Virus record (IMG/VR): IMGVR_UViG_3300032296_001930
Location: 1 to 55,249 of that record
Source of the DNA: a virus
Reading direction: 5' to 3' (one strand)
Length of the DNA: 55,249 nucleotides
Below the pieces are notes generated by a model, which saw only the letters and a program-made list of their open reading frames with translations, was not told the origin of the DNA and searched no databases. Shown one piece after another: positions 843 through 54,722 of this stretch. Position 1 is the first letter of the stretch. Every line of letters starts with the position of its first letter. Made by a program: the position numbers and the translations under genes.

Positions 843-1045
843 GCGCCCCTCCTCTCGGCCACCTTGACGGCGATGTCGCCCTCGGCCATATGCCACATCA
901 GACGCAGCAGGAACTCCTGAGACATCTTCGAGGTGTCGATGTGGAGGTGGGCCTCCTGCGCCACGATCATGCCGTCCACGATGCGCTTGGGGTTGCGGTA
1001 CACCACCGTGGACTCGTAGACATCGAACCGGGCGTGCTCGTTCAC
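839..1045 (-). CDS. small hypothetical protein (68 aa), GTG start
   Basis: The product starts VNEHARFDVYESTVVYR. The start is a GTG inside a GTGA overlap with the preceding stop codon. The open frame extends further upstream, but that part is only the antiparallel shadow of the previous gene. It ends with an ATGA overlap onto the next gene. No recognisable domain; part of the tightly coupled early operon. Confidence 0.65.
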   Translation of the reverse strand: MNEHARFDVYESTVVYRNPKRIVDGMIVAQEAHLHIDTSKMSQEFLLRLMWHMAEGDIAVKVAERRGA

Positions 1046-1242
1046 GCCTGCGCTCCGGTGGCCAGCACGCGATTGATGGCCTCGACCATCTTGCGGGCCT
1101 GATCGAAAGTCAGGGTGCAGTTCGCACCGCCGCCGCTGACCTGAATCGACAACCACAACTCGTTGTCGTCGTACTTGTCCACGAAAACCACGCGCTCGAA
1201 TCCGTCGGCGGTCTCAATACGGGTCTGAAGATCTTCGCTCAT
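1042..1242 (-). CDS. small hypothetical protein (66 aa)
   Basis: It starts MSEDLQTRIETADGFERVVF and is predicted as a short alpha/beta protein with no known domain. The start at 1242 follows the shared leader AACAGCGAAtGGAG. A promoter-like sequence lies 30-65 bp upstream. This makes it the first gene of a leftward transcription unit (1242 to 1 and beyond). Confidence 0.7.
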   Translation of the reverse strand: MSEDLQTRIETADGFERVVFVDKYDDNELWLSIQVSGGGANCTLTFDQARKMVEAINRVLATGAQA

Positions 1243-1274
1243 TTGTCGCTCCATTCGCTGTTGATGATGATGTA

Positions 1275-1305
1275 AGTATACATGAAACTTGGAAGGGGGT
1301 GTCAA
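1275..1305 (-). promoter_or_regulatory. early promoter, 19-bp spacer class (copy A)
   Basis: On the minus strand TTGACA (1300-1305) and TATACT (1275-1280) are separated by 19 bp. The spacer begins with a C run and ends in TTTCATG. Copies B and C share the geometry, the C run and the TTTCA block. It lies directly upstream of the gene starting at 1242. Confidence 0.55.
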
Positions 1306-1571
1306 TCCCAATAATCGTCGCGGCTGCCTTCCATGGCCTCGAAGATTTCTTCGTCGATGCGGCTCTCGTCTTCGCGGCTCATCTTGCGCTCCAGCCACGG
1401 GGCCTTGCGGCCGCGGCGGTCAAGCACCACCCAACTGCCGCAACCGCCCTCGGCGGGGTAGCAGCGCTCGGGAGGGCCGGAGACCTGAGCAGGGACATAA
1501 GCCTCCCAATCAGTGACACCGATGAGGCAGGGGATGCCTGCCACGCGGGATTCGATTTCGGCGATGTACAT
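1302..1571 (-). CDS. hypothetical protein (89 aa)
   Basis: The product begins MYIAEIESRVAGIPCLIGVTD and ends in an acidic, Asp/Glu-rich helix (SREDESRIDEEIFEAMEG). Two Cys near the middle (ERCYPAEGGC) could bind metal or form a pair. The ATG at 1571 follows a GGGGG ribosome site. The last codons overlap promoter copy A, so termination of this unit and the start of the next are adjacent. I do not recognise the family. Confidence 0.65.
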   Translation of the reverse strand: MYIAEIESRVAGIPCLIGVTDWEAYVPAQVSGPPERCYPAEGGCGSWVVLDRRGRKAPWLERKMSREDESRIDEEIFEAMEGSRDDYWD

Positions 1572-1584
1572 GGCAGCCCCCTGA

Positions 1585-1899
1585 TCAGAAGTTGTAGTCG
1601 TAGAACTTGACGGGCTTGTCGCTCAGGCCGAAGCGGCGGCCGTACTTGTCTTGCCAGCCCTTCTTCGCGCTCAGGCGGATGCGGATCACCGGATTGCTCT
1701 CGTTGCTGGTGATGAACCACTTCTGGTCACGCTGGTTGGAGCAGTGGGCGGCGAACCCGCCGACATGGAACTCCAACTTCACGCTCTCGTCGCGCTCGGT
1801 GTCCATCTCGCGGATCTCAATGGTCTTGTCGCTGATCACGCGCACGACCTCGTAGGGGGTCACATCGCTGTAGCCGTAGTGGTTTGCGTATTGGTTCAT
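1585..1899 (-). CDS. conserved phage hypothetical protein (104 aa)
   Basis: The sequence begins MNQYANHYGYSDVTPYEVVRV and has alternating charged beta-strand-like segments (TIEIREMD, VKLEFHVGGF). It looks like a compact beta-rich protein. The start at 1899 has the shared leader AACAGCGAAGGA and promoter copy B upstream, so it opens its own unit. A basic C-terminal half (RIRLSAKKGWQDKYGRRFG) is compatible with nucleic-acid contact, but this is speculative. Confidence 0.7.
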   Translation of the reverse strand: MNQYANHYGYSDVTPYEVVRVISDKTIEIREMDTERDESVKLEFHVGGFAAHCSNQRDQKWFITSNESNPVIRIRLSAKKGWQDKYGRRFGLSDKPVKFYDYNF

Positions 1900-1949
1900 G
1901 GTCTCTTTCCTTCGCTGTTAGTCGGCACCACCGTGGTGTCGATGGTGTA

Positions 1950-1980
1950 ATTCTAACTGAAATCTGGAGGGGGTCATCAA
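1950..1980 (-). promoter_or_regulatory. early promoter, 19-bp spacer class (copy B)
   Basis: Minus strand: TTGATG (1975-1980), 19-bp spacer, TAGAAT (1950-1955) followed by TACACC. The spacer has five C's and GATTTCA. The downstream leader up to 1899 ends with AACAGCGAAGGA. The intergenic stretch 1900-1993 holds nothing else I can recognise. Confidence 0.6.
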
Positions 1981-1993
1981 CTTAGGACAAACC

Positions 1994-2185
1994 CTAATGC
2001 GGATGCTTGATTTCGGCCGGGGTCGGCGGCTGAAGGTAGCCCAGCAGACGCACTAGCACCATGGCCTCGTGCGGGGGCAGCGTGAGCAGGTACTGCTTGA
2101 TCTCGTGGATCAGGTAGTCGCAGCCGTTGTCGAACCCGGCGATGTACTCGCTCATGACGGTCTCTGGCGCGTGCTGTGGTCTCAT
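1994..2185 (-). CDS. small hypothetical protein (63 aa)
   Basis: The start at 2185 follows a GAAGGGGG ribosome site within the end of the upstream gene; an internal ATG at 2155 is an alternative. The product is helical with a Leu-rich middle (HEIKQYLLTLPPHEAMVLVRLL) and no domain I can name. It is the last gene of the unit that starts at 3075. Confidence 0.6.
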   Translation of the reverse strand: MRPQHAPETVMSEYIAGFDNGCDYLIHEIKQYLLTLPPHEAMVLVRLLGYLQPPTPAEIKHPH

Positions 2186-2187
2186 GG

Positions 2188-2625
2188 CTATCTACCCCCT
2201 TCCTCTCTCAGAAAATCGGTTCCTGCGGCCGTTACGGCCCATACCGCGGCCTTCTTGCGGTGCGCGGTCATCCTGCGCTCGCCGGTGTCCTTCACCAGCC
2301 CCTTGTTGGCCAGCGTCACCCGGCAGGGCCGGTACGAGTTGCCGTCCATCCGCATCACGCTCTGGCCCTCCTCGTCGGTCAGGCCGTCGGCGTGGCGGGA
2401 CAGGGCCACCAGCACCGCCCGGGTGGAGCGGCCAAACTTCGGCGCGACTTCGGCGGCAGCCTCCCGGCTGGTCTCACTGTGCCGCTGGTGCGGCGGCAGG
2501 GTGCCCGGGTTCAGATCGGCCTCGATCAGAGCCACGCGGGTCTTGATGGCGTCGGCCACGAAGATGTCGTTGGTGCGGATGCTCTTGAGTTCAACGAGCA
2601 CCATGCGAAGGGTTCTGCGACTCAT
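2188..2625 (-). CDS. winged-helix-like DNA-binding protein (145 aa)
   Basis: The ATG at 2625 overlaps the upstream stop as TGATG; the longer frame upstream is the shadow of the neighbour. The second half resembles a MarR-type winged helix. A helix pair (TRAVLVALSRHADGLTDEE) is followed by a recognition-like helix (RPCRVTLANKGLV) and a two-strand wing with basic residues (TGERRMTAHRKKAAVWAV). The first 50 residues are helical and may dimerise. It could regulate early promoters, or it may be one of the replication-associated wHTH proteins common in phages. No ligand site is evident. Confidence 0.6.
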   Translation of the reverse strand: MSRRTLRMVLVELKSIRTNDIFVADAIKTRVALIEADLNPGTLPPHQRHSETSREAAAEVAPKFGRSTRAVLVALSRHADGLTDEEGQSVMRMDGNSYRPCRVTLANKGLVKDTGERRMTAHRKKAAVWAVTAAGTDFLREEGGR

Positions 2626-2906
2626 CACTTGCTCCAGTGGTTCTCGCAGATATCCCCCGCGGCGATCCAGAGGATGCGCTGAAGGTTCTGCGGGTGATCG
2701 GCCAGTTCGGTCTCGTCCCAAGCCCCGTACTCGCGAAGTTCGTTTCGCAGAGACTCGGGGTCGATCTTCTCCAGTTGCCTTCGGATGCTGCGCTCGTTGG
2801 AGAGCGCCAGCACATCGTCGTCGCACGGGCCGGGGTGCGTGCAGGACTGCGCCTGCTTCAAGGTCATCTGGATCTCAATGCGGCCATGGGTTGATGTGAA
2901 CCACAT
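2625..2906 (-). CDS. conserved phage hypothetical protein (93 aa)
   Basis: A short two-part protein. The N-terminus (IEIQMTLKQAQSCTHPGPCDDD) contains two Cys and one His and could hold a metal. The C-terminal helical part (LRNELREYGAWDETELADH) recurs in many phage early regions. Function is unknown. It overlaps the wHTH gene downstream as TGATG, suggesting joint expression. Confidence 0.7.
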   Translation of the reverse strand: MWFTSTHGRIEIQMTLKQAQSCTHPGPCDDDVLALSNERSIRRQLEKIDPESLRNELREYGAWDETELADHPQNLQRILWIAAGDICENHWSK

Positions 2907-2907
2907 A

Positions 2908-3075
2908 TCACTCCTCCGCGGCCGGTTGCTCTGGCTCCTCGCGGGAGATCACGACGAAGTCGCCCGTGTGCCGGTAGGTCTCGATCTCGCACTTGTTGAA
3001 GTTGGTGCTCATGCGCTGGTTGATGATCTCCAGCACCAGTTGCTCGACTTCGGCTTTGGTCATGATGACTTTCAT
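2908..3075 (-). CDS. small hypothetical protein (55 aa)
   Basis: The start is set at ATG 3075 because it follows the leader AACAGCGAAAGGA; the extended frame upstream would run through a terminator. The product begins MKVIMTKAEVEQLVLEIINQR, an amphipathic helix, and ends in a Glu/Pro tail. Function unknown. It is the first gene after the hairpin at 3104-3117, so it either has its own promoter or is reached by read-through. Confidence 0.65.
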   Translation of the reverse strand: MKVIMTKAEVEQLVLEIINQRMSTNFNKCEIETYRHTGDFVVISREEPEQPAAEE

Positions 3076-3096
3076 TTCGCTTTCCTTTCGCTGTTG

Positions 3097-3117
3097 AAAA
3101 AAAGGGGCCGAAGCCCC
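3097..3117 (-). terminator. intrinsic terminator with UUCG loop
   Basis: In the minus sense GGGGC-TTCG-GCCCC is followed by seven T's (3097-3103). It ends the gene 3123-3425 and is one of four UUCG-capped hairpins in the window. Confidence 0.8.
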
Positions 3118-3122
3118 GGGGT

Positions 3123-3425
3123 TCACTTGCTGGTGACCTTGATCGAGAACACCGCGGCGGTCTTGGTGTGCTCGGCGATCAACTCGGCCGGGATGTTCAT
3201 GGCCTTAGCCACGGCCTTCCAGTCAACCGTCGAGCGGTTGGTCTCGATGTAGGTGGCCTTGAAGAGGTCACCCTCGAACGACTTCTGACCAGACAGGCTG
3301 GCCTCATCCTTGAGGGCGTCCGTCATGGCGTCGTATTCCTTGGTCAGGTCGGCGATCTGCGCCTTGAGTTGGCCCAGACGGTCGATGCTGATGTCGTTGC
3401 TGCCGGTGGTGATGGTGGTGTTCAT
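3123..3425 (-). CDS. conserved phage coiled-coil protein (100 aa)
   Basis: The N-terminal half is a predicted coiled coil (LGQLKAQIADLTKEYDAMTD). A compact region containing FKATYIETNRSTVDW and a C-terminal HTKTAAVFSIKVT follow. This architecture is a recurrent small early protein in phages of Proteobacteria and has no proven role that I know. The start at 3425 has the shared leader AACAGCGAAAGGA and promoter copy C; a terminator follows at once. It is therefore a single-gene unit, which suggests high early expression. Confidence 0.75.
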   Translation of the reverse strand: MNTTITTGSNDISIDRLGQLKAQIADLTKEYDAMTDALKDEASLSGQKSFEGDLFKATYIETNRSTVDWKAVAKAMNIPAELIAEHTKTAAVFSIKVTSK

Positions 3426-3475
3426 GTTCGCTTCCTTTCGCTGTTAGACGCTATCGAATTGATCGCGTTGGTGTA

Positions 3476-3506
3476 ATTCTATGTGAAATCCACGGGGGTG
3501 TGTCAA
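3476..3506 (-). promoter_or_regulatory. early promoter, 19-bp spacer class (copy C)
   Basis: Minus strand: TTGACA (3501-3506), 19-bp spacer with CCCCC and GATTTCA, and TAGAAT (3476-3481) followed by TACACC. This is the best-matched member of the promoter family. Confidence 0.65.
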
Positions 3507-3838
3507 GCCCCCACAGAAATGAAGGTCTTTAGTTGTGGCGGCAGGGGGCCGTACTGCTCCTCCAGCAGGGCGGCGGTGTCCCTGAGCAGGTCTCGCTCGT
3601 CGTAGCCGTAGTGCTTGGGGAACCCTTTCGTGCCGAGGCCGTGCAGGCCCGTCTTGCCCCTGTGGTGCTCTGGGCATAGTGGGATGACCTCCCAGTGGCT
3701 GGAGCGCCTTCCAGCCCCCGTTCCGGCCCTCAGGTGGTGGATCTCCGCCGGGGTGCCCGGGTGACCCATGCGGCGGCAGACCGCGCAGCCCAGTTCGGCC
3801 ACGCGGCCAAGGTGTTTTTTCTCAGCCAGCGTGGTCAT
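3503..3838 (-). CDS. Ref-like HNH nuclease (RecA-dependent recombination enhancer family)
   Basis: The product (111 aa) has a Cys-x-x-Cys (GCAVCRR), an IHHLR motif and a CPEHH-GKTGLHG stretch. This is the metal-binding HNH arrangement of phage P1 Ref, a RecA-dependent nuclease that enhances recombination. The final helix is ordinary and there is no long disordered N-terminus as in P1 Ref, so this is the nuclease core only. The ATG at 3838 overlaps the upstream stop (ATGA). Together with RusA and the exonuclease on the other strand it completes a recombination toolkit. Confidence 0.8.
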   Translation of the reverse strand: MTTLAEKKHLGRVAELGCAVCRRMGHPGTPAEIHHLRAGTGAGRRSSHWEVIPLCPEHHRGKTGLHGLGTKGFPKHYGYDERDLLRDTAALLEEQYGPLPPQLKTFISVGA

Positions 3839-7981: not shown

Positions 7982-8619
7982 ATCACCCTCCGCATCGAAA
8001 CGGCTCCAGAGGCCGGATTTTCGTCTTCCCACCGGCGCTGGTTGATGTAGGTCATCGGGGCAGGCTCGAAACCCGATGTCCACTGCTCCGAGGTCTTCAT
8101 CGACGCAACATGGGCGATGATCTGGTCGGCCACCTTGTCGAGGTGGTGACGCTGCCACTTCGCAGCCACCGCAGCCTTGCCGACCTTGCGCTTGCTGCTG
8201 GGCCACACCGACCAGAAGTCCTCAAACCGCGACGCCGACGATATGGTTTTTTCTTTTTCTTCTTCTGTTAGGGTTTCAGTTCGGTTTTGATTCGGTTCCG
8301 ATTCGGTTTTCTTCGGCCTGCCGCCTCGCTTTCCGAGGGCCGTGTTAGTTGCCACCTGATGCTGATATTTCGTGATTTCGATATCACAACGATGGTTCCG
8401 ATACCCCTCTTCGGTGCGCTCGAAGAATTCCCCCAAAACCGATTCGGTTATGTCCAGATCGAGTCGAATCTTGCGTGAAACCGATTCGGTATCGAGTGGG
8501 ATTGGGCGCTCGCTCATGTAGTACAGATCGAGCAGCCTGCGGTAGGCCAGATCCTCAGCGTCACTGAGGTGCATGGTGTGGGTGATGTAGTCACCGAGAT
8601 GGAACTTGTACCAGATCAT
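7978..8619 (-). CDS. DUF1376-family replication protein (213 aa)
   Basis: The N-terminal 60 residues (WYKFHLGDYITHTMHLS ... EDLAYRRLLDLYY) are the DUF1376 signature found in phage replication modules, usually beside a DnaB or DnaC gene. A charged linker (PKKTESEPNQNRTETLTEEE) precedes a C-terminal domain (FEDFWSVWPSSKRKVGKAA) typical of phage O-like or helicase-loader proteins. It likely binds the origin or loads the downstream helicase. The gene itself contains five of the near-palindromic repeats, as lambda O contains its origin iterons. Confidence 0.8.
   Translation of the reverse strand: MIWYKFHLGDYITHTMHLSDAEDLAYRRLLDLYYMSERPIPLDTESVSRKIRLDLDITESVLGEFFERTEEGYRNHRCDIEITKYQHQVATNTALGKRGGRPKKTESEPNQNRTETLTEEEKEKTISSASRFEDFWSVWPSSKRKVGKAAVAAKWQRHHLDKVADQIIAHVASMKTSEQWTSGFEPAPMTYINQRRWEDENPASGAVSMRRVI
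8280..8490. repeat. iteron-like repeat cluster, candidate replication origin
   Basis: Inside the DUF1376 gene three 11-bp units TTCGGTTTTGA, TTCGGTTCCGA and TTCGGTTTTCT stand in tandem at 8280-8312. Full near-palindromes follow at 8437-8449 (AACCGATTCGGTT) and 8478-8490 (AAACCGATTCGGT). The 11-bp period puts the units on one face of the helix. Origin function is inferred from position and arrangement only. Confidence 0.45.
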
Positions 8620-8825
8620 TTGAGCGCTCCGAAGATGTCGGGCCTCAACTCTTCACGGGTGACGAGTCCATTGGTCAACTGGTGGATCAGCACAGCCAAC
8701 TCTGGGCTGGGCACTTGGTGGCCATTCGTGATCAGGGTCATCCATGTCTTGGAGATCCCCAACTTCTTGGCCAACTCCAACTGCGCCCCGCGGGGTTTGT
8801 TGGAGAAGTATTCCTGAAGTGTCAT
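8616..8825 (-). CDS. YdaS/Cro-like helix-turn-helix regulator (69 aa)
   Basis: It begins MTLQEYFSNKPRGAQLELAK. The helix-turn-helix spans roughly residues 12-35 (LELAKKLGISKTWMTLITNG) followed by HQVPSPELAVLIHQLT. This is the usual pattern of YdaS-type Cro proteins at the divergence point of lambdoid-style early regions. ATG 8825 is chosen from the shared leader AACAGCGAAAGGAG-like sequence (here GACAGCGAAAGGAG). It probably represses or times the two divergent promoters at 8855-8917. No integrase accompanies it. Confidence 0.8.
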   Translation of the reverse strand: MTLQEYFSNKPRGAQLELAKKLGISKTWMTLITNGHQVPSPELAVLIHQLTNGLVTREELRPDIFGALK

Positions 8826-8854
8826 CGTTGCTCCTTTCGCTGTCAGGTAATGGC

Positions 8855-8882
8855 ATCTTACACCAAAAAACTTTTTGCACAA
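8855..8882 (-). promoter_or_regulatory. leftward early promoter
   Basis: Minus strand TTGTGC (8877-8882), 16-bp spacer, TAAGAT (8855-8860), 30 bp upstream of the YdaS-like gene. It is back to back with the rightward promoter. Confidence 0.5.
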
Positions 8883-8901
8883 CCCCCGTTGTACTTCGGG
8901 G
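8879..8901. promoter_or_regulatory. operator candidate between divergent promoters
   Basis: An inverted repeat ACAAC-CCCC-GTTGT (8879-8892) lies across the two -35 boxes. A second, CCCCG ... CGGGG (8884-8901), overlaps it. The position suits control of both promoters by the YdaS-like protein. Confidence 0.4.
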
Positions 8902-8917
8902 TTATACCTGCTAAAGT
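8889..8917 (+). promoter_or_regulatory. rightward early promoter
   Basis: TTGTAC (8889-8894), 17-bp spacer, TAAAGT (8912-8917), then the leader CAACAGCGAAAGGA (8929-8942) before the ATG at 8950. Confidence 0.55.
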
Positions 8918-8949
8918 CGAGGGCACCTCAACAGCGAAAGGAGTGAATC

Positions 8950-10321: not shown

Positions 10322-10864
10322 ATGACCAACACAGTCACTCTGGAGAAAATCGAATCGAAGATTCGCAGTGAGTCGTACATCGTTTTGCCCGACGGGCGAA
10401 CCACGATCTGCCAGATCACACTGATCAACAACTTCACGGTCAACGGCCACTCGGCCTGTGTCGATCAGAAGAACTTCGACTTCGAGATCGGCCGCAAGAT
10501 CGCACGAGAGGACGCCATTCGGCAGATCTGGCCGTTGGAGGGATACCTGCTGTCGCAGCGCATCTTCGAAAACACCGCCAAGTTCATGCTGTCTGCCGAA
10601 GATGTGAAAGCGATGAAAGAGGCCGGGATCTGGGAAGACCTCGACAAGCGCTACTGCATCATCAACCGCATGATCGCAGAGCGCCAGCGTGGTCTCAACA
10701 TGATCAAGATCGAAGAGCCGCAGGAGAAAGCCGAACCCGAGGCTCCTCCTGCCGTCAAGGCCGCGCCGAAGAGCAAGAAGAAGGATCCGACAGCCCCCTA
10801 CGGCTACAAGAAGGATGGCACACCCAAGAAGCGCCCGGGCCGGGCACCAAAGGAGCAGGCATGA
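10322..10864 (+). CDS. N4 gp49 / Sf6 gp66 family protein (180 aa)
   Basis: Residues 20-75 (VLPDGRTTICQITLINNFTV ... SACVDQKNFDFEIGRKIAR ... IWPLEGYLL) match the phage gp49/gp66 family, small early proteins of unknown mechanism. The C-terminal 45 residues are a basic Lys/Pro/Ala tail (APKSKKKDPTAPYGYKKDG) that could bind nucleic acid. It overlaps the next gene as ATGA. Confidence 0.8.
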   Translation: MTNTVTLEKIESKIRSESYIVLPDGRTTICQITLINNFTVNGHSACVDQKNFDFEIGRKIAREDAIRQIWPLEGYLLSQRIFENTAKFMLSAEDVKAMKEAGIWEDLDKRYCIINRMIAERQRGLNMIKIEEPQEKAEPEAPPAVKAAPKSKKKDPTAPYGYKKDGTPKKRPGRAPKEQA

Positions 10865-11373
10865 AGCGCTACATCGGAGTCAAGGAGATCAACGCCACGC
10901 CCATGACGCGGCTGGCGTACAACCATCTGCGCGGCTGGCAGGTTCCCGCTGACGAGAACCCCGACGACGAGGGCTATCTGGTCGAGTATCTCGATGGCGG
11001 ACAGGCCAACCACTCTCAGTTCAAGGGATACATCTCTTGGTCGCCGAGGGATGTGTTTGACCGGGCCTACCGTCCAGCAGAAGGCATGACCTTTGGCCTC
11101 GCGCTGGAGGCCCTGAAGAAGGGCCACAGGGTGGCCCGCAAGGGCTGGAACGGCAAGGGGATGTGGCTGTCTCTGTCCGGGGATGCAAACCTGACCCGGT
11201 ATGTGGAAGAGGACAAGTTCTGGTCGAAGAACAACAGTGACTTCGCGCTCGCTCAAGGCGGGGCTGCTCGCGTGCTTCCGTGCATCACCATGAAGACCGC
11301 AGACAACGCGATCTTGATGGGATGGCTGGCATCGCAGACCGATATGCTGTCCGAAGACTGGGAGGTCGTATGA
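10861..11373 (+). CDS. Tad2-like (DUF2829) anti-Thoeris protein with extra N-terminal domain (170 aa)
   Basis: Residues 74-170 are a DUF2829 domain: GMTFGLALEALKKGHRVARK, GWNGKGMWLSL and the end MKTADNAILMGWLASQTDML followed by SEDWEVV. Tad2 proteins of this family sequester the cyclic ADP-ribose-type signal made by Thoeris defence and so block it. The first 70 residues (KRYIGVKEINATPMTRLAYN ... EGYLVEYLDGG ... GYISWSPRDVF) form a second small domain often found alone or fused in phages. The location in the first rightward operon suits an early anti-defence role. Activity here is inferred from family. Confidence 0.8.
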   Translation: MKRYIGVKEINATPMTRLAYNHLRGWQVPADENPDDEGYLVEYLDGGQANHSQFKGYISWSPRDVFDRAYRPAEGMTFGLALEALKKGHRVARKGWNGKGMWLSLSGDANLTRYVEEDKFWSKNNSDFALAQGGAARVLPCITMKTADNAILMGWLASQTDMLSEDWEVV

Positions 11374-29136: not shown

Positions 29137-29528
29137 CACCACACCTTTTTCTTGATCGATTCGGGCTGCGGGACAAACTGCTTGCCCTCTCGCATTCCTT
29201 CTCGTTTGGCTCGCGTGGTTGCCGCGTATTCAGAAGGGGTTAACTTCTCTCGTGCCTTTTTCGGCAGGTATCGCTCGCCTGTTGCTTCAGATCCTTGGGT
29301 GGACGGCTTTCCAGACTTCGTGCCCCAGTCCTCTTTCGTCCACTTTGAGAGCGAATTATCCGCTCTCTTGGGGCCTTTGTAACCTCCGCCCGAGGCTTTG
29401 TACTTCTGGGTGGCCAGTTGCGCCTTGCGGGCGCTCCATTGGCCCGGAGAGCCGCCCTTCCCGCTGGCCTTGACCTGCGAGACGATGCGCTTCCACTTGG
29501 AGGGGTCGGACTTGGTTGCTGCGCTCAT
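29136..29528 (-). CDS. basic DUF5872-like protein (130 aa)
   Basis: Lys/Arg-rich with motifs SKWKRIVSQVKASGKGG, GQWSARKAQLATQKYK, GGGYKGPKRADNS and KWTKEDWGTKSGKPS. These match a small basic family (DUF5872-like) found in phage and large-virus genomes. The charge suggests DNA or RNA binding inside the virion. It lies between lysis and connector genes. Function unknown. Confidence 0.65.
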   Translation of the reverse strand: MSAATKSDPSKWKRIVSQVKASGKGGSPGQWSARKAQLATQKYKASGGGYKGPKRADNSLSKWTKEDWGTKSGKPSTQGSEATGERYLPKKAREKLTPSEYAATTRAKREGMREGKQFVPQPESIKKKVW

Positions 29529-44001: not shown

Positions 44002-44949
44002 TTACCCTCTATTGTTTCGTGCCTGCTCGGCGTAGCGTTTGATCATTCGGTTGCGTGACGCGGGGTCATCCCACAGTCCTGCATCCTTTATTGCCCGTAC
44101 CATTTCAGGTTCGAGGACAAAGGTTTTCCCAGTTTGACCGGGAACCGATGATTCTCTACTTGAGCCGGTGACGAAACTTCGAGGTCTCCTTCGTGGTTGG
44201 TCGTCTTGTTCGTGAGTATAGCGATTCGGTAAACGAGCGTGCAAGCGTTTGTCAAACTCGTCCCAATACTCTTCGCTCGCGGGATCCCAGCCCTCGGAGG
44301 CCAGCCGGTTGTCGATCAACTTGGCGATCTGGCTGTCCTCGTCCCCACCGTTGGGGTCGTACCAAGGGTTGCGCTCCATCCACTGGTTGGCCAACTTGAC
44401 CAAACGAGGATTGGCGGGGCCTGCGTCGTTGTTTGTGGCCTGCACGGCGCGTTGCTTGATGCCCTGCATGGCCTCGACCTTGCGGCGTGCCTCATACCAG
44501 CCTTCTTGGGCCTGCATGAAGGCCGCACCGTCGGAGTTGTCGGTGGCCTCGCGCATCTTGCGCTTGAAGAACTCAAGGCGGGCCTCCTCGTCGGAGATCG
44601 CCGAGTCGAGACGGGCCAGATCGGCGGTGTGCGTCTTGCGCTCCACCGCGGCCAGCCGCTCCATGAGTTCTTGGTTCTGCCGCGTGAGCAGGGTCAGGCG
44701 CTGATCCTTCTCTTCGTTGGTGCGCTTGATGTACTCTTTCTTGGCGCGGCGTCGTGCCCGGCGGGCGTCGCGGATAGCGTCGGTATCACCGGGCTGGTCT
44801 TCGTCACCAGAGTCGTCCTGAGCGGCCGCCTGACCGCCGTCGGCCATGTCCACGCCTTCCATGCCCTCGGGCAGTTCGACGATGACGGAGCCGTCCTTCT
44901 CTTCGGTGACCTCAAAGACCTCTTCTTTGGGTTTGGTTTCTGTGTTCAT
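44002..44949 (-). CDS. scaffolding protein (315 aa)
   Basis: Acidic N-terminus, long charged coiled coil from about residue 60 to 170 (ARRARRRAKKEYIKRTNEEK, QNQELMERLAAVERKTHTAD) and a basic C-terminus (QARNNRG). Position directly before the capsid module fits. Scaffolds guide procapsid assembly and then leave. ATG 44949 overlaps the co-chaperonin stop (ATGA). Confidence 0.75.
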   Translation of the reverse strand: MNTETKPKEEVFEVTEEKDGSVIVELPEGMEGVDMADGGQAAAQDDSGDEDQPGDTDAIRDARRARRRAKKEYIKRTNEEKDQRLTLLTRQNQELMERLAAVERKTHTADLARLDSAISDEEARLEFFKRKMREATDNSDGAAFMQAQEGWYEARRKVEAMQGIKQRAVQATNNDAGPANPRLVKLANQWMERNPWYDPNGGDEDSQIAKLIDNRLASEGWDPASEEYWDEFDKRLHARLPNRYTHEQDDQPRRRPRSFVTGSSRESSVPGQTGKTFVLEPEMVRAIKDAGLWDDPASRNRMIKRYAEQARNNRG

Positions 44950-54661: not shown

Positions 54662-54693
54662 GGTTTTGCTTTTGTTTGAATAGGACAGATGTA

Positions 54694-54722
54694 ATTCTAA
54701 CGGATATCAGCAGATGTGAAAA
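54694..54722 (-). promoter_or_regulatory. promoter for the 77-aa gene
   Basis: Minus strand TTTTCA (54717-54722), 17-bp spacer, TAGAAT (54694-54699) followed by TACA. It shares the TAGAATTACA block with the early class but not the C-rich spacer. Confidence 0.45.

Follow-up and report, generated by a model that had tools for sequence, protein, structure and literature searches.

Phage lambda Cro is a small HTH repressor that acts at palindromic, promoter-overlapping operators (OR and OL) and represses its own synthesis. A Cro analogue, the YdaS protein of CP-933P, an E. coli O157:H7 prophage with a Rac-type immunity region, covers both its own and the opposing promoter in footprinting (PMC8630535). 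The footprinted region carries 18-bp inverted repeats with the half-site GTTTAGTAA; the authors leave the exact sites of YdaS and of the CI-like PaaR2, which shares the region, to be determined (PMC8630535), and it could be that these repeats are bound by PaaR2 instead of YdaS. CtrA sites in alphaproteobacterial phages combine a 7-bp gap with AT-rich half-sites at phage promoters (PMC9437464). In mycobacteriophages one repressor serves many genomic sites, the stoperators, which are described as asymmetric and spread across the genome (PMC9283540).

Here we describe putative operators in a virus record of 55,249 bases, the whole of which was analysed and is called the window below. The candidate regulator resembles CP-933P YdaS in family and fold, its putative operators include one at its own promoter, and the inverted repeats have, like those of CP-933P (PMC8630535), a GTTTA-type half-site. 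Unlike the CP-933P repeats they span 19 bp rather than 18, they are scattered along some 7.6 kb among several small early operons, and no Peptidase_S24 repressor or phage integrase was detected in the window. The likeness to lambda Cro lies in a small HTH protein, palindromic operators of similar length over promoters and, as proposed here, autorepression; unlike those of lambda, the window operators are single rather than in triplets, a CI partner was not detected in the window, and the half-site is different. The gap length, AT-rich half-sites and promoter location are also those of CtrA sites, but the window lacks TTAA-N7-TTAA and half-sites appear to follow the phage's own repressor. As with stoperators, one repressor would have many genomic sites, but in contrast to stoperators the window sites are symmetric and lie on -10 boxes.

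Genome context

The early genes of the window include a member of the YuA gp49 family, RusA, a DnaB-like helicase, a primase fragment and a DUF1376 replication protein; the literature gave nothing specific on YuA-like promoters. Comparison of the 733-aa structural protein shows even the nearest annotated phages to be distant relatives. A homologue of this protein, 67% identical, comes from a contig assigned to a Betaproteobacteria MAG, which is a weak hint of a betaproteobacterial host. Neither a phage (tyrosine) integrase nor a Peptidase_S24 repressor was detected in the window, although the record may be incomplete, and HTH_3 matched only the YdaS-like gene discussed below. A CI-like partner and a lysogeny module usually accompany a YdaS/Cro-type repressor but do not define it.

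Three probable leftward early promoters

The initial annotation pointed to three leftward sites with a TTGAYR -35, 19 bp, and TATACT or TAGAAT followed by TACA, and these are present as described. The 55 kb contain three matches to TTGAYRN{18,20}TAKAMTTACA, always on the minus strand and with a 19-bp spacer, compared with a mean of 0 in 100 dinucleotide shuffles. Each site stands directly 5' of one small early gene:

1271 to 1305, minus strand: promoter P1; -35 TTGACA at 1305-1300, 19-bp spacer, -10 TATACT at 1280-1275, then TACA
1042 to 1242, minus strand: gene downstream of P1, 66-aa protein without a family match
1946 to 1980, minus strand: promoter P2; -35 TTGATG at 1980-1975, 19 bp, -10 TAGAAT at 1955-1950, then TACA
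1585 to 1899, minus strand: gene downstream of P2, 104-aa protein of phrog_19789, with a relative encoded in 118 viral-contig stretches
3472 to 3506, minus strand: promoter P3; -35 TTGACA at 3506-3501, 19 bp, -10 TAGAAT at 3481-3476, then TACA
3123 to 3425, minus strand: gene downstream of P3, 100-aa protein of phrog_6244

All three have the TTGACA-like -35, the TATAAT-like -10 and the 15 to 19 bp between them that are typical of sigma-70 promoters, although the -35 of P2 (TTGATG) is weak and has an alternative, ATGACC, at 16 bp. We therefore regard P1-P3 as probable phage promoters of ordinary sigma-70 architecture. At P1 and P3 the preceding gene has its TGA stop codon inside the TTGACA (1302-1304 and 3503-3505, minus strand). 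The -10 block was also said to recur at 54694. The letters TAGAATTACA are indeed found at 54690-54699, but this copy has no TTGACA at 19 bp, where the nearest candidates are TTTTCA at 17 and TTCACA at 15, and it lacks the left element described below, the corresponding position reading ATATCC.

A run of C in the spacer, noted in the initial annotation, is present but in no fixed register, starting at spacer position 1, 2 or 3. The -35 is often bracketed by an inverted repeat of a G run and a C run, both in the window (1295-1310 and 3490-3515, minus strand) and in relatives (L022, L241, L248 and L002; the L022 example reads GGGGGTTGACTCCCCC). This repeat may be the source of the C run, and it is possibly the terminator of the preceding gene fused with the promoter.

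A 19-bp dyad centred on the -10 box

The conserved element of these promoters is a 19-bp dyad, RTKTMA-N7-TKAMAY, whose centre falls on the -10 box at about -11. In the alignment of relatives, RTTTMA lies two bases 5' of the -10 and TTAMAC begins on its last T. The GATTTCA-like motif previously assigned to the spacer is the left half of the dyad, and the TACA past the -10 is the right half. The earlier suggestion that shared sequence reflects a bound protein gains support from this dyad. In the window, the putative operators are:

1270 to 1288, minus strand: putative operator O1, GTTTCA-tgtatac-TTACAT, centred on the -10
1945 to 1963, minus strand: putative operator O2, ATTTCA-gttagaa-TTACAC
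3471 to 3489, minus strand: putative operator O3, ATTTCA-catagaa-TTACAC

Among 204 related loci (2.24 Mb), GTKTAA-N7-TTAMAC is found 19 times, while the remaining gap lengths between 0 and 15 each give 0 to 2 sites, and 12 of the 19 sites lie outside any ORF of at least 60 aa. The looser RTKTMA-N7-TKAMAY gives 33 matches versus 3 to 12 at other gaps, but it was chosen with the letters of the window in view, and the argument is carried by the stricter pattern. The window half-sites ATTTCA and GTTTCA are imperfect. A model made from the strict sites of relatives, with the window excluded, returns O1, O2 and O3 as the three best window sites at gap 7, and the third-ranked score was matched in 1 of 100 Markov shuffles. 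A site at 44239 ranks fourth and the dyad at the ydaS promoter fifth. We rely only on this relatives-only model; an earlier one was built on a pattern loosened after the window had been seen, and iterative retraining was dropped after the model drifted in AT-rich genomes. Thirteen promoters have the dyad centre at about -11 and five have it at about -17, and such shifts make contact with a sigma factor an unlikely reason for its conservation.

A YdaS-like protein as candidate repressor

The initial annotation listed the protein encoded at 8616 for footprinting, and with a dyad at its own promoter and at the ydaS genes of relatives it now appears to be the best candidate regulator.

8616 to 8825, minus strand: YdaS/Cro-like repressor gene, 69 aa, the proposed regulator (from Pfam, phrog and a structure model)
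8845 to 8863, minus strand: putative operator at the promoter of this gene, GTGTAA-gatgcca-TTACCT, overlapping the -10-like TAAGAT at 8860-8855

The protein matches Pfam YdaS_toxin (2.9e-11) and phrog_35, transcriptional repressor (5.9e-11). Its AlphaFold model (pLDDT 91.7) has as best PDB match the YdaS of CP-933P (8co2, TM 0.86, 34% identity). As would be expected of a YdaS/Cro-type repressor, predicted dyads lie over the target promoters and over its own, where the right half, TTACCT, is weak and the centre is at about -6 relative to the promoter. The leftward YdaS-like gene and a small rightward gene, whose first base is 8950, diverge from the intergenic region at 8826-8949, a layout like that of a phage switch.

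YdaS homologues are encoded in 14 of 20 related contigs, one of them a weak match. With ydaS-upstream sites left out of training, regions upstream of ydaS genes with an SKTW or SRTW recognition helix have a mean best score of 12.2 at gap 7 (12.5 without the window), versus at most 6.4 at gaps 3-6 and 8-11, and none of 1000 shuffles reached 12.2. Other ydaS types score far lower (2.7), as expected if their specificity differs, yet above their own shuffles. Phages with an AEWM helix (contigs G021 and G024) carry TTGAA-N7-TTCAA before ydaS, and their early promoters have the same dyad or a one-letter variant. Dyads at ydaS and at early promoters match better within phages than between them (p = 0.0016 at gap 7), in a crude permutation test of 17 phages, three of them closely related, that gives a similar p at gap 8. 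It thus appears that the half-site class goes with the YdaS recognition helix, an association that has few phages behind it. When only the ydaS upstream regions were tested for inverted repeats regardless of sequence, the result was not significant and gap 7 did not stand out, presumably owing to additional repeats from terminators and leader hairpins. Caulobacter phage GB2A, of which 49 kb were examined, lacks dyads of this kind there, and its Cro-like gene is a different one.

Proposed mechanism

We consider it likely that the sigma-70 early promoters of this phage are repressed by an autoregulated, Cro-like protein of the YdaS family (8616-8825) through the 19-bp dyad over the -10. The early genes of this phage are YuA-like, and P1-P3 would be early promoters read by the host sigma-70 polymerase. 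A dimer of the 69-aa protein would bind RTKTMA-N7-TKAMAY, occlude the -10 to RNA polymerase and so turn the early genes off, and binding to the dyad over its own promoter would provide negative feedback. After infection, early genes would be expressed first, and their expression would cease once enough YdaS-like protein has built up. The sequences establish the sites, the dyad with its fixed 7-bp gap, its conservation in relatives, its presence at ydaS promoters and the varying distance to the -35; from them we infer the identity of the bound protein, its binding as a dimer, repression rather than activation, and the timing. The dyad does not keep one place within the promoter (about -6 at ydaS, about -11 or about -17 elsewhere), which is what an operator should show and fits steric repression better than activation. 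The result is a concrete putative operator with a candidate repressor for environmental phages for which we found no description of gene control, and it ties changes in operator half-sites to the recognition helix of a family still named 'toxin' in Pfam. If the proposal is true, YdaS/operator pairs are a naturally varied set of Cro specificities, and Cro-type control operates here without a detectable lysogeny module.

Alternative regulators

It is unlikely that the same operators serve another phage protein, such as the one encoded at 2188-2625, or that a YdaS-like protein uses them as an activator. The gene at 2188 is located among the P1-P3 genes, and the initial annotation named its product, which it labeled a wHTH protein, or a host factor as a possible regulator; the protein belongs to phrog_1123, a family without an assigned function. 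However, the dyad is present in many phages that lack a 2188 homologue in the sequence compared, and among the relatives a homologue is found only in L002 and, weakly, in L096. Activation is disfavored by the position of the dyad over the -10, which is an unusual site for an activator.

Control by a CtrA-type host regulator, through which early phage transcription would follow the cell cycle of the host, is quite unlikely. Consensus TTAA-N7-TTAA sites control genes of alphaproteobacterial phages (PMC9437464), and 10 of the 28 tabulated dyad promoters, the window included in the tabulation, have a perfect copy. However, the sole one-mismatch match in the window, at 29229, is distant from P1-P3, which themselves read TTCA-N7-TTAC. 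Moreover, conservation extends to positions outside TTAA, and the half-sites vary with the YdaS type. Only one close relative was located in a bacterial assembly; its contig belongs to a Betaproteobacteria MAG, and betaproteobacteria are not known to have CtrA.

Alternatively, there may be no regulator, and the promoters may be alike by descent, as sigma-70 promoters duplicated within the genome. The window has just three sites, with similar flanks and a common leader motif, AACAGCGAA(A)GGA. Nevertheless, we find this very unlikely, since the symmetry with its exact 7-bp gap is kept across phages despite differing flanks, -35 spacing and half-site letters.

Spacer length

The initial annotation proposed a motif search in related phages, and this recovered the shared dyad and -10 block but not the spacing. 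Its fixed 19-bp spacer is correct for the window and fails for the family: in 19 scorable dyad promoters, the window's three included, the spacer is 16 bp in five, 17 in three, 18 in five and 19 in six, the automatic scoring having chosen the 16-bp alternative for P2. When spacing is left free, relatives with the identical block have a perfect TTGACA at 16 bp in one clade (L322, L334, L340, L356, L359 and L102) and TTGACA at 19 bp in L113 and L117. A functional spacer would have to be constant, and thus 19 bp is no family property. Matches to TTGAYRN16-21TAGAATTACACC were mostly chance-like, within AT-rich coding sequence, and were used only if a leader and start codon follow; likewise, a viral-contig scan with a degenerate block gave mostly chance matches in AT-rich phages, except for the clade with 16-bp spacers.

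MerR-type promoters have a constant spacer of 19-20 bp with a dyad centred in it. Although all three window promoters have 19 bp, the MerR-like mechanism suggested earlier, in which a protein activates the promoter by untwisting spacer DNA, is scarcely credible, given that relatives with the same block have 16, 17, 18 or 19 bp, that the dyad is centred at about -11, on the -10, rather than between -35 and -10, and that a profile search of the window, in which positive controls matched, gave no match to MerR_1 (PF13411). A profile search of the window also gave no match to phage sigma factor region 4 (PF04545), and one for single-subunit RNA polymerase (PF00940) matched neither the window nor its positive controls.

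Leaders and hairpins

The leaders of P1-P3 are alike, with AACAGCGAA followed by a purine-rich ribosome-binding stretch and ATG. Similar ribosome-binding leaders, approximately AACAGCGAA(A)GGA, also occur at about 3080-3100 (minus strand), 8826-8845 (minus) and 8925-8949 (plus); they stand 5' of several early genes on both strands and are seen again in relatives. Folding predicts two hairpins in the window:

1922 to 1942, minus strand: hairpin predicted in the P2 leader, close to the 5' end of the transcript
3448 to 3468, minus strand: hairpin predicted in the P3 leader, close to the 5' end of the transcript

The P1 leader has no such hairpin by the same folding, and the P2 and P3 hairpins taken singly do not have significant z-scores. 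However, across the dyad promoters of the window and its relatives, leaders fold at a mean of -7.1 kcal/mol versus -3.9 in shuffles (standard deviation of shuffle means 0.53). Most have a predicted hairpin, whose stem often begins a few bases past the predicted transcript start. A hairpin at the 5' terminus would protect the mRNA. It is possible, though less likely than not, that a solitary Cro (YdaS) acts as a multi-operon early shut-off repressor of hairpin-capped transcripts in a largely unexplored aquatic phage lineage, with integrase and CI apparently absent and with immunity-like operator divergence in the absence of lysogeny.

Homologues of the gene at 1585-1899 in seven relatives (L006, L010, L019, L036, L050, L055 and L062) are preceded by another promoter family, with TTRAA-N7-TTYWA dyads over or near the -10. 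Finally, the gene at 10861-11373 (plus strand) encodes a C-terminal Thoeris anti-defence 2 (Tad2-like) domain (Pfam, 1.5e-24).
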